Shown here piece by piece: positions 1-17,267 of a stretch of 64,000 nucleotides of DNA. The notes below the pieces were generated by a model that saw only the letters and a program-made list of their open reading frames with translations, ran no database searches and had not been told where the DNA came from. The first letter of the stretch is position 1. The number at the start of each line of letters is the position of its first letter. Both the position numbers and the translations under genes were made by a program. Source of the DNA: Natranaeroarchaeum sulfidigenes (GTDB lineage: Archaea; Halobacteriota; Halobacteria; Halobacteriales; Natronoarchaeaceae); the NCBI RefSeq assembly GCF_017094485.1, contig NZ_CP064786.1:186001-250000 (forward strand), given 5' to 3'.

Positions 1-822
1 ACCGAGGCGTACGCGAGCTTCGAGGCAACCGAGGATGAACGCGAGCTGATCGCGGAGGCATACGCAGCGCTTGACGGCGAGGCGGCCCGCACGGATGCCG
101 ACCGCGATACCGTTCGGTGCGAGGACATCGCCGACTGGCTCCGCGAGCACGAACCAGCGCCCGAGGACGAGCGCCAGTCAGCCATGGAGAAACTCGACGC
201 CGCGGGCAAGGAGCCGGTTCGCCCCCGCGTCAGGCTCCTCGATCGGAACGCCACCGAGGAGGCCTTCGAGGCGCTGATCGACGCAGTCGAGGGTGAAAAA
301 CGCGTCTACGAGAATCACGTCGACACGTTCGAGCTCACCCGTGCGGACGCCGACGAGCTCGCCCGGCAGGTCGAACTCGACCACGGCGGTTACGGCTTCC
401 TGCCCCCGTCGTCGATCTACCACCGCTTTATGACCGGTCTCACCGGCGGCAAGATGTCATCCTCGATCCCAGCGAGCCACATCTCGCTGCTGGACGATCC
501 CGAGGAGGGGTACGACAAGGTCAAATCCGCGACCACGGGCGGCCGCGAAACAGCCGAAAAACAGCGCGAACTCGGCGGGAAAGCCGACGAGTGCCCGGTC
601 TACGAGCTGTACGCCTACTTGCTCGCGGACGATGACGACGAGTTCGCAACGGAGGTCTACGAGGAATGTGTCGGGGGCGAACGGCTCTGTGGCGGGTGCA
701 AGGAACAGGCCGCCGAGCTGATGGCCGAGTTCCTCGAAGAGCATCAGGAGAAACGCGACGAGTGGGCCGAGAAACTTGACGAGCTGGATATCGAACTCGA
801 CAGCGATCGAGCGCGTCGGTAA
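1..822 (+). CDS. trpS: Tryptophan--tRNA ligase, C-terminal part (5' end outside window)
   Basis: Charges tRNA-Trp in the cytoplasm. The frame is open from base 1, so the N-terminal Rossmann part lies upstream. The class I signature is visible as TGGKMSSSIPASH (KMSKS-type loop), followed by the anticodon-binding helical region with a short Cys cluster (ECVGGERLCGGCKEQ). The C-terminus is strongly acidic. The family is about 500 residues in haloarchaea, so roughly half is present. Tyrosyl-tRNA synthetase is the main alternative, but the text after KMSSS (SLLDDPEEGYDKVKSATTGG) looks like archaeal TrpRS. It ends in TAA, and the next gene begins about 70 bases downstream on the same strand. Confidence 0.85.
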   Translation, partial: TEAYASFEATEDERELIAEAYAALDGEAARTDADRDTVRCEDIADWLREHEPAPEDERQSAMEKLDAAGKEPVRPRVRLLDRNATEEAFEALIDAVEGEKRVYENHVDTFELTRADADELARQVELDHGGYGFLPPSSIYHRFMTGLTGGKMSSSIPASHISLLDDPEEGYDKVKSATTGGRETAEKQRELGGKADECPVYELYAYLLADDDDEFATEVYEECVGGERLCGGCKEQAAELMAEFLEEHQEKRDEWAEKLDELDIELDSDRARR

Positions 823-9448: not shown

Positions 9449-10919
<1,471 letters not shown>

Positions 10920-11340: not shown

Positions 11341-11365
11341 ACACAGACGACACACGAATTATTTG

Positions 11366-14282
<2,917 letters not shown>

Positions 14283-14432: not shown

Positions 14433-14553
14433 TTAAGGCGGCCAGAGCGGCAGGGCAACTCCCGTACCCATCCCGAACACGGAAGATAAGCCTGCCCGCG
14501 TTACGGCAAGTACTGGAGTGGGAGACCCTCTGGGAACACCGGATCGCCGCCTG
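14433..14553 (+). rRNA. rrf: 5S ribosomal RNA
   Basis: About 121 bases: TTAAGGCGGCCAGAGCGGC at the start pairs with GGATCGCCGCCT at the end. Loops CCCGTACCCATCCCGAACACGG and AAGTACTGGAGTGGGAGACC are the usual 5S core. Followed directly by a terminator hairpin; no tRNA follows within the operon. Confidence 0.95.
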
Positions 14554-14565
14554 TCAATCATATCG

Positions 14566-14597
14566 CGCCCCCATGCATCGCGCATGGGGGCGTTTTT
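14566..14597 (+). terminator. rRNA operon terminator
   Basis: CGCCCCCATGC and GCATGGGGGCG form an 11-bp stem with a five-base loop, followed by TTTTT. It lies 13 bases after the 5S end. A hairpin of this strength is unusual in archaea, where a T-run alone usually suffices. Confidence 0.75.
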
Positions 14598-14801
14598 CAT
14601 TTCGAACCGGGCGAGAGCCAGCGGTGCGGTTTCCGATACCTCGTGAGGTCTTCGACTCACTTTACACCTTGTAGACTAACTAATGACTATTACAAACTAT
14701 CTGCTTCTACACGTTTGTGAGTCTCTCAAATTTTGTTCAGCACTTTTACTTATGTATTATTAACCGTAATTACTATTAGATATGGCTATTACTAGCGACA
14801 C
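14598..14801 (+). other. Intergenic, AT-rich stretch before the subtilase
   Basis: About 200 bases turning sharply AT-rich after 14660. It carries TATA-like runs (for instance TTACTTATGTATTATTAACC near 14748-14765) suited to driving the protease gene. An ATG at 14781 runs into a stop after 12 codons. Confidence 0.5.
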
Positions 14802-16640
14802 GTGCCAGCAAATAACATAACTCGACGACGAGTACTACAGACAGTCGGCGGTGCAGGTGTAGCCGGTGCCGTTGGGACAGGAACTGCCAGTGGAGATGAC
14901 AGTGGGCCGTCAGACGGGTATATTATCGGGGTCGATCCCGGTAAGTCGGACCTGCCGGCGCAGGCCGCCGACCAGGTGTTTCGGCGACTCGACTTTGGCG
15001 AGATCGGTGAGGCGGTATCGGGTCGGTTCTCCGAGCAGGCCTTGGACGCGCTGCGCAGCAACCCCAACGTCCGGTACGTCGAACGGAACGGACGGATGCA
15101 CGCACACGACCAGACGACGCCCTACGGTATTGATATCACGGATGCCGACGTGGCAATTGATGATGGGGATACCGGGGAAGGGGTCAGCGTGGCGATTCTC
15201 GACACCGGGATTGATGCCCAGCACGAAACTCTGGAGTCAAATCTGGGAGAGGGCTGGGCCGCGACGGATGCGGCCTGTGAGTCGGACTGTAGTGGCTGTC
15301 GGTTCGGGGGTGGCGGGAGCGACATCGACGAGTGTCTGGAGGAATGGGACGACGATAACGACCACGGAACACACGTCGCCGGGACGGCTGCGGCCGCGGA
15401 CAACGGAACTGGGGTGCTTGGAGTCGCTCCTGAAGTGACCTTGCACGCTGTCAAGGTTCTCGATTGCTGTGGAAGCGGCAGTTTTGACGACATCGCTGCA
15501 GGGATCGAGTGGTCGGCGGATCAGGGCCACGATGTCCAGAACATGAGCCTGGGCGGGGACTCCGACTCCGATGTCGTGACAGACGCGCTCCGGTACGCAG
15601 CCGACCGGGGTGTCGTGATGATCGGCTCGGCGGGTAACTCCGGGGAGTGCACCGACTGTGTCGGGTTCCCCGCGCGGGACGAGCGCGTTGTTGCGGTATC
15701 GGCGACCGACGAGAACGACGAACTCGCGAGTTTCTCCTCGACGGGGCCGGAGGTCGAGCTTGCAGCCCCTGGCGTCGATACGCTCTCGTCGATTCCGCGG
15801 GACGACTACGACGAGTTCTCCGGTACATCGATGTCTGCGCCACACGTCGCGGGTGCCGCGGCTACTGTCATCGCCGACGGGACAGAGGATCGTGAAGCCG
15901 TCCGCGCAGAGCTGAAAGACGCTGCGGACGATATCGGTCTCTCCGACGAGGAACAGGGCGCAGGCCGGTTGAATGTCGCCGCGGCGGTCGACGCGGACGG
16001 CGATGACGATGACGACGATGAAGACGATGACGAAGAAGAGGACGAGAGCGTCACCGTCGCCACCGAGGCGGCGACCGATGTTGAGGAGACCTCGGCGACG
16101 CTGAACGGCGAGGTCACGGAGCTCGACGGCGTGGACGAGGCCGATGTTGGCTTCGAGTACGGCAACAGCGGCGAGGAGCTTTCGAGCGATGTCGATGCGG
16201 GAACCGTCTCGTCAGAAGGGACATTCGACGCGGATATCGACGGTCTGGACGGTGGCACGGAGTACGAGTTCCGTGCAGTGGCCGAGATTGATGCGGATAG
16301 TGACTCCGGTGAAATCCGGAGTTTCACGACCGACGACGGGGACGGGACGGGCGACAGCGACCCAGTAATCGAACAGTTCGACGTGACCGAGGATTCCAAC
16401 CCCAACTGGTCACGACACACGGTCGACTGGGAAGTCAGCGACGAGGACGGTGCCCTCGACACAGTGACGAGCGAACAGCTGGATGCGGGCTCCGTCGTCG
16501 ACAGCGTGACCTCCGACGTGAGCGGCGGCAACGCGGACGGCCGCCACGATCTGGAGAGTCGCAGGTCGTCTGTCGACGAGGTCCGTCTCACCGTCGTCGA
16601 CGAAGCCGGTAACGAGACCAGCGAAACGGAATCTGTCTAG
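14802..16640 (+). CDS. Tat-exported subtilisin-like serine protease (halolysin type) with C-terminal beta domains
   Basis: Secreted S8 endopeptidase, 612 residues, GTG start. A Tat signal (TRRRVLQTVGGAGVAGAVG, cut near residue 30) precedes an I9-like propeptide (about 38-100). The catalytic triad is intact: Asp134 (ILDTGID), His188 (DHGTHVAG), Ser343 (GTSMSAPHVAG), with oxyanion Asn279. Eight Cys lie in the catalytic domain (159, 163, 166, 178, 222, 223, 283, 286), four of them in an insert between Asp and His, unlike cysteine-poor halolysins. A run of D/E (about 393-412) links to a fibronectin-III-like domain (about 415-510) and a second beta domain (about 520-600). The inhibitor-like gene follows by 9 bases, so the two are probably cotranscribed. 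Confidence 0.93.
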   Translation: MPANNITRRRVLQTVGGAGVAGAVGTGTASGDDSGPSDGYIIGVDPGKSDLPAQAADQVFRRLDFGEIGEAVSGRFSEQALDALRSNPNVRYVERNGRMHAHDQTTPYGIDITDADVAIDDGDTGEGVSVAILDTGIDAQHETLESNLGEGWAATDAACESDCSGCRFGGGGSDIDECLEEWDDDNDHGTHVAGTAAAADNGTGVLGVAPEVTLHAVKVLDCCGSGSFDDIAAGIEWSADQGHDVQNMSLGGDSDSDVVTDALRYAADRGVVMIGSAGNSGECTDCVGFPARDERVVAVSATDENDELASFSSTGPEVELAAPGVDTLSSIPRDDYDEFSGTSMSAPHVAGAAATVIADGTEDREAVRAELKDAADDIGLSDEEQGAGRLNVAAAVDADGDDDDDDEDDDEEEDESVTVATEAATDVEETSATLNGEVTELDGVDEADVGFEYGNSGEELSSDVDAGTVSSEGTFDADIDGLDGGTEYEFRAVAEIDADSDSGEIRSFTTDDGDGTGDSDPVIEQFDVTEDSNPNWSRHTVDWEVSDEDGALDTVTSEQLDAGSVVDSVTSDVSGGNADGRHDLESRRSSVDEVRLTVVDEAGNETSETESV

Positions 16641-16649
16641 TCGATACCA

Positions 16650-16982
16650 ATGTCCCTGGAACCGGCGCTCTCCGCGACTATCGACCGGGATGTCACCTTT
16701 CGGCTGACAGTTACCAACGCCGGATCGACGCCCGTCGAGCTGACGTTCCGGGATGGCCGCCGTGCCGATATCGTGGTCTACGGCGCCACTACCGATGAGG
16801 AGTGCTGGCGGTGGAGCGACGGCAAACTGTTCACACAGGCGATCGAGCGTGTAACGCTTGCACCTGGTGATCAGTTTGAGCGGGAGTACGTCTGGTCAGA
16901 TCCACCATCCGGAGAGTACGTCGCAGTCGCGGCCCTTACGGCGGACGAGGACGTAACAGCACGTGTTGCGGTGACGATATGA
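16650..16982 (+). CDS. BsuPI-type proteinase inhibitor-like protein
   Basis: 110 residues, a single immunoglobulin-like beta domain: LSATIDRDVTFRLTVTNAGSTPVELTFRDGRRADIVVY, then ECWRWSDGKLFTQAIERVTLAPGDQFEREYVW and SGEYVAVAALTADEDVTARVAVTI. This order matches the BsuPI family named for an intracellular proteinase inhibitor of Bacillus subtilis. No signal peptide is visible, so the product should stay in the cytoplasm. It starts 9 bases after the subtilase stop on the same strand, which suggests protection of the cell against the unexported protease. Inhibition itself is inference; the domain is also found in unrelated settings. Confidence 0.78.
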   Translation: MSLEPALSATIDRDVTFRLTVTNAGSTPVELTFRDGRRADIVVYGATTDEECWRWSDGKLFTQAIERVTLAPGDQFEREYVWSDPPSGEYVAVAALTADEDVTARVAVTI

Positions 16983-17155
16983 GGGAAGGAGTCGGTCGAT
17001 TCGGATCAACGGTGAAAACGTGGCCGGCCTGTCGACCCGGTTGAGAACACTGAACGGCCTGAGATCCCTTCGGGAGACCCGATCGCCGCTCGGTACTTGT
17101 TTTACGCGGAGCGAGAATTGTGTGCGAAGTATCGTTACCGCTGCTGGCGAAACGC

Positions 17156-17168
17156 AGGGCTTAAGCGG
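17156..17168 (+). promoter_or_regulatory. Promoter of tRNA-Cys
   Basis: AGGGCTTAAGCGG carries the same CTTAAG TATA-position box as the rRNA promoters, about 31 bases before the tRNA 5' end, so the tRNA has its own promoter. Confidence 0.5.
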
Positions 17169-17191
17169 GAGACGAATCTATCTACATACGC

Positions 17192-17267
17192 GCCAAGGTG
17201 GCAGAGTCCGGCCGAACGCAGCGGCCTGCAGAGCCGCCCATCGCCGGTTCAAATCCGGCCCTTGGCT
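17192..17267 (+). tRNA. tRNA-Cys (GCA)
   Basis: 76 bases. Acceptor GCCAAGG/CCTTGGC with discriminator T, as usual for tRNA-Cys. Anticodon stem GCGGC/GCCGC with loop CTGCAGA gives GCA. T arm GCCGGTTCAAATCCGGC. T6 directly follows (17267-17272) as a likely terminator. In many haloarchaea this tRNA follows 5S inside the rRNA operon; here 2.6 kb and two protein genes separate them. Confidence 0.97.

Follow-up and report, generated by a model that had tools for sequence, protein, structure and literature searches.

A leaderless BsuPI-family gene recurrently paired with Tat-type subtilases in haloarchaea: a candidate cytoplasmic safety inhibitor

Haloarchaeal secretion runs mostly through the Tat pathway, which exports folded enzymes, and haloarchaea must therefore cope with proteases that have folded before they leave the cell. 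In Natranaeroarchaeum sulfidigenes the gene of a Tat-type subtilase is directly followed by that of a small BsuPI-family protein. Does the small protein protect the cell from its neighbor before export? The window analyzed here is the whole 64,000-nucleotide stretch that holds the pair (contig NZ_CP064786.1, positions 186,001 to 250,000). A first-pass annotation had proposed that the BsuPI protein is an immunity factor holding the enzyme inactive until export. Our analysis favors, at a probability of roughly 0.64, the reading that BsuPI would act in the cytoplasm as a safety inhibitor of Tat subtilases, with the two genes as a co-directional protease and inhibitor cassette. The parts belong to known families; the recurrent pairing of subtilase and BsuPI is real and informative.

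The subtilase (Table 1) was correctly described in the first-pass annotation as an enzyme with a Tat signal and an intact triad, the signal being a prediction from motif reading: TRRRVLQT is followed by an uncharged stretch within a Tat-like N-terminus (TRRRVLQTVGGAGVAGAVG; given in the locus description as TRRRVLQTVGGAGVAG). Residues D134, H188 and S343 and the oxyanion Asn of the catalytic domain, which was identified by profile search, all lie in their usual motifs, and these are intact (ILDTG, HGTHVAG, SAGNSG, GTSMSAP). Three features had been omitted. The region between signal and catalytic domain is a probable I9-type propeptide, judged from a weak match (PF05922, E=0.006, 17.7 bits against a cut-off of 21.2); an extension of about 220 amino acids, also carried by the nearest relatives, follows the catalytic domain and has a weak Fn3-like match (E=0.05); and the pair is located between a 5S rRNA and a tRNA-Cys gene. 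The subtilase is the sole PF00082 match in the 3.04 Mb single-contig genome.

Its neighbor is likewise the only PF12690 match in this genome. The spacing of 9 bases reported earlier is exact, with the subtilase stop codon ending at 16640 and the BsuPI ATG at 16650 on the same strand. Also upheld is the description of a 110-residue BsuPI gene lacking a signal peptide: the profile search scored 87.7 bits against a cut-off of 22.9, and since the domain match begins at residue 12, directly behind the N-terminus MSLEPALSATI, there is no signal peptide. The structure of Bacillus subtilis IPI (PDB 3isy) was matched in a sequence search (E=1.2e-9) and was the top PDB match in a Foldseek search with the AF2 model (pLDDT 88; E=1.1e-7, TM 0.90/0.85); as modelled, the window BsuPI has the IPI-type Ig-like fold. 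Family, length, fold (TM 0.90), the FTQA of the wedge loop and the missing signal peptide (short form) are all shared with B. subtilis IPI (BsuPI, PF12690, formerly MEROPS I22), which has been studied against the intracellular Isp1, whereas the window BsuPI lies directly behind a Tat-type subtilase. Within the haloarchaeal family the proposed reactive loop keeps its Phe in 100% and its Gln in 82-94% of sequences, and a comparison of paired with lone haloarchaeal BsuPI proteins revealed no difference in this loop, which is equally conserved in both. An AF2 model of an in-frame read-through fusion of subtilase and BsuPI (TAG read as Gly), used as a stand-in for the complex, reached pLDDT 43 and pTM 0.29, values too low to inform on binding.

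Table 1. Features of the subtilase-BsuPI locus (positions in the window unless given as residues)
Feature	Position	Strand	Evidence
5S rRNA, left boundary	14434..14555	+	Rfam RF00001, 96.5 bits
Insert of ~2.5 kb relative to the same-genus empty site, only the two genes	14614..17136	.	match to G140:C17
Tat-type S8 subtilase (halolysin-like), 612 aa, GTG start	14802..16640	+	PF00082 E=1.2e-54
Subtilase, predicted signal	residues ~1-31		
Subtilase, probable propeptide	residues 71-102		weak I9 match
Subtilase, catalytic domain	residues 125-388		PF00082 E=1.2e-54
Subtilase, C-terminal side: acidic linker, then extension			weak Fn3-like match (extension)
BsuPI/IPI-family protein, 110 aa, leaderless, pI 4.3; proposed inhibitor	16650..16982	+	PF12690 E=5.5e-25
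Codons of LFTQAI, the counterpart of MFTQAF in the proposed B. subtilis IPI reactive loop	16827..16844	+	phmmer alignment
tRNA-Cys, right boundary	17192..17267	+	ARAGORN and Rfam

Both families are widespread among the 392 haloarchaeal genomes searched: PF12690 was found in 213 (54 of 86 genera) and PF00082 in 338. The survey of BsuPI neighbors that the first-pass annotation had called for was conducted on about 8 kb around each of 99 BsuPI genes plus the window, a non-random sample of 100 loci made up of the best-scoring PF12690 matches and all those from the window's family. A subtilase, mostly of the Tat type, is the immediate upstream gene on the same strand (within 400 bp) at 34 loci; these span 21 genera and 6 families, and the distance is mostly within about 130 nt. 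Chance would yield an estimated 0.1 such loci, assuming several S8 genes among some 3,500. Because the window genes are the sole PF00082 and the sole PF12690 gene of their genome and stand in the order found at 34 of 100 loci, the pair is not a chance arrangement. The remaining loci have a subtilase immediately downstream (2), elsewhere within 4 kb (3) or none within 4 kb (61). BsuPI genes standing mostly without proteases had been named beforehand as an outcome that would speak against an immunity factor, and the 61 loci do count against it. Equally, the majority of S8 genes, Tat subtilases included, have no adjoining BsuPI gene.

In all 99 BsuPI proteins with a callable start the first Met lies a few residues before the domain, too close for a signal peptide to fit; the BsuPI of locus L100 was left out of the start calls, as no common start codon precedes its domain. 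A twin-arginine motif with a hydrophobic stretch is found in 49 of 56 S8 frames from loci with S8 next to BsuPI, and the D/H/S triad together with the oxyanion Asn is kept in 52 of 61 S8 frames from loci that have an S8 anywhere within 4 kb. Variants of the arrangement were also seen. Four loci of one family (L126, L082, L083 and L144, family f7) have two or three tandem subtilases followed by a single BsuPI, one subtilase copy at each showing an exchange of the oxyanion-hole Asn for Gly with D, H and S kept. In another genus (g68; L064, L108) three subtilases come after BsuPI instead of before it.

Co-occurrence at the level of whole genomes was set aside as evidence. Both families are present in 203 genomes and BsuPI only in 10 (Fisher p=1.5e-8, uncorrected for relatedness), and we do not rely on this value because S8 is found almost everywhere and the genomes share ancestry. 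The 10 of 213 BsuPI genomes that lack any PF00082 match (L122, L090, L092 and seven further ones) include several that are about 99% complete.

Most BsuPI genes, paired or lone, share one locus: a divergent DUF2797 gene, zero to three subtilases, BsuPI, and then either an epimerase with a Trm56-like gene or CbiX. The window and several others sit elsewhere. Since the shared locus exists with or without a subtilase, the subtilase comes and goes before a fixed BsuPI. Adjacency of the two genes occurs in at least 7 gene contexts and involves several separate S8 lineages. The BsuPI clade of the window has 11 members (support 88/84, not decisive), of which 6 are paired and 5 unpaired, the latter judged from the DNA around each, with two contigs short. 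An earlier statement that this clade is always paired (6/6) was dropped when the five unpaired members were added.

The subtilases paired with this clade fall on at least 4 separate S8 branches. Those of the window and of genome G367 belong to a well-supported group with C-terminal extensions whose members are otherwise not next to BsuPI; those of G257 and G267 form part of another branch, that of G382 stands apart and that of G310 is far away. In the careful tree the clade partners are never monophyletic (0% of 200 bootstraps; 5 changes). The nearest relative of the window BsuPI, from G267, is 53% identical, and its partner subtilase comes from a different branch. Genus g48 offers a close view of such exchange: G367, G267 and G426 share a downstream MATE gene, with one of two different subtilases or no subtilase beside BsuPI. 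In G382 and G429 the downstream gene is 97.5% identical, and a subtilase is present in G382 only. In the trees, BsuPI stays in place while subtilases appear, vanish or get replaced. Repeated independent pairing, as reconstructed here, argues most strongly for a functional link, which is favored because inherited synteny alone would not give this pattern. Three close relatives of the window BsuPI (L229, L230 and L231) have a different neighbor: each directly follows an Hsp20-family gene, identified as HSP20 by Pfam in L231 and by homology in the other two, with no subtilase nearby.

To the left of the window pair an rRNA operon ends (16S, 9449-10919; tRNA-Ala; 23S, 11362-14282; 5S). A genome of the same genus, G140, lacks PF12690 and has an empty site at the same place: positions 6-55 of its contig C17 match window positions 14564-14613 (98%), positions 90-221 match 17136-17267 (98%), only 34 bp separate the two blocks, and beyond them G140 continues into the same lipA-side sequence as the window. 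It follows from this alignment that the insert of about 2.5 kb contains subtilase and BsuPI and nothing else. Next to the rRNA operon, the two genes occur together or are both missing; the difference may reflect a gain here or a loss in G140. A search for target-site duplications and terminal inverted repeats around the insert found no convincing pair, the sole flanking direct repeat being imperfect (76% over 29 nt, at 14522 and 17061). In G140:C17 (L193) the 3' end of tRNA-Cys (199-221) is repeated about 100 bp downstream (299-323), the repeat spanning 25 bp and being exact to the end of the window tRNA-Cys; to judge by its sequence, this repeat resembles the attachment-site scar of an element integrating at tRNA-Cys. 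Three genomes of a sister genus carry an unrelated insert upstream of tRNA-Cys (L195 3784-6349, L200 1046-3521, L196 73-2067), about 2.5 kb long in the two in which 5S was located, with two genes that, named by eye, are RnfC/NADH-dehydrogenase-like and a GNAT acetyltransferase. The site between 5S and tRNA-Cys therefore tolerates insertions and seems to be a recurrent landing site. Carriage of BsuPI by plasmids or phages was considered and rejected: phages gave no match, and the single plasmid match is a large Natronorubrum replicon at a canonical BsuPI locus.

How might such a cassette work? Its Tat signal would have the subtilase fold in the cytoplasm, where self-removal of the propeptide could free active enzyme. 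We infer co-transcription because the gap is only 9 bases, and subtilase and leaderless BsuPI would then be translated from one message. BsuPI would remain in the cytoplasm, bind the subtilase and block any that matures too early, its conserved wedge loop (LFTQAI) probably entering the active-site cleft; export would part the enzyme from its inhibitor, to the presumed physiological benefit of the cell. Docking of IPI placed residues 62-68, to which LFTQAI corresponds, in the protease cleft (PMC3901451). The intracellular risk posed by a Tat protease, which the first-pass annotation had asserted, is real for the halolysin SptA: in PMC6085418, Tat-signal-mutant SptA is reported to build up in active form within Hfx. 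volcanii, killing the cells, and wild-type cells are reported to accumulate active SptA late in growth. Halolysins are described there as Tat substrates with a propeptide. The probable propeptide of the subtilase itself is a point against a safety inhibitor.

The immunity factor proposed earlier accordingly stands in part. A leaderless protein, its modelled IPI fold, the loop and adjacency to unrelated, mostly Tat-type subtilases far above chance all speak for it; a factor dedicated to the window enzyme is hard to reconcile with 61 of 100 loci without a subtilase and 10 of 213 genomes without PF00082. Lone BsuPI genes would fit either a cytoplasmic inhibitor of wider range, with linked subtilases among its targets, or an orphan immunity gene that was kept. 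A bolder version, which we consider possible yet rather doubtful, is that BsuPI is a stable resident of haloarchaeal genomes giving broad-range immunity: Tat subtilases in front of it would be tolerated, lost and swapped, different exported proteases would come to share one cytoplasmic lock, and the pair could move as a cassette, into an rRNA operon for instance, in the manner of toxin-immunity genes.

Lone copies also bring other explanations into play. If BsuPI had a more general task in the cytoplasm, inhibiting several proteases or acting on them in protein quality control, with the neighboring subtilase not its main role, one could understand why most copies stand alone at the DUF2797 locus in genomes that carry many S8 genes at other places, why ten genomes have no S8 at all, why three copies follow an Hsp20-like gene and why the loop is as conserved in lone as in paired proteins. 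Such a factor leaves unexplained that unrelated subtilases repeatedly land directly upstream and that the pair forms a unit at the rRNA site, and we regard it as unlikely. Still less probable is that BsuPI, without inhibiting the subtilase, serves as its dedicated chaperone for folding or Tat proofreading. A cytoplasmic partner encoded next to a folded Tat substrate and an Ig-like fold suited to binding would agree with that idea, and the IPI authors themselves raised a non-inhibitory protein-protein interaction (PMC3901451); against it, Tat subtilases of the same genomes mostly occur without a BsuPI gene beside them, and the family has a reported record of inhibition and a cleft-compatible loop. 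Mere chance co-carriage, with BsuPI serving an unrelated function, could draw on the commonness of lone copies and on a co-occurrence that is uncorrected for relatedness in a nearly universal S8 family, but adjacency recurring in so many contexts and S8 lineages makes it very improbable.

The safety-inhibitor reading has counterparts elsewhere. With the staphostatins and with SpeB/Spi, the gene right after that of a secreted protease encodes a cytoplasmic inhibitor, which guards the producer from premature activation, and the logic of the haloarchaeal pair resembles theirs by analogy. Those systems are bacterial and differ in having cysteine proteases, unrelated inhibitor folds and Sec instead of Tat export. 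Among haloarchaeal enzymes, the halolysins SptA, Nep and HlyR4 share with the window subtilase the Tat signal, the S8 catalytic domain, the C-terminal extension and probably a propeptide (here a weak I9 match). Intracellular self-activation was shown for SptA (PMC6085418); the halolysin descriptions consulted have these enzymes rely on propeptide and expression control and mention no linked BsuPI gene. Our search of the open-access literature, with subscription journals largely outside it, found no description of an archaeal subtilase-BsuPI pair. The 2013 structure paper on IPI stated that no completely sequenced species has an IPI-homologue gene near a subtilisin gene (PMC3901451), a statement that the haloarchaeal loci surveyed here contradict.

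These pairs bear on two older questions. Inhibition of Isp1 and subtilisins by IPI was reported with a Ki of about 1e-9 M, yet it is disputed, and the family was dropped from MEROPS on the ground that competition by substrates had not been excluded (PMC3901451); cognate subtilase-BsuPI pairs bear on the debate whether IPI-family proteins are real inhibitors. NSI, an intracellular subtilisin inhibitor purified from Natrialba magadii, is known biochemically, its gene not being known as of 2012 (cited in PMC3403918); BsuPI is a candidate gene family for NSI. For haloarchaea at large, the recurrent pairing bears on how folded proteases are safely handled beyond the propeptide, and its recurrence with different enzymes across the group suggests a lock that may keep them from damaging the cell before export.
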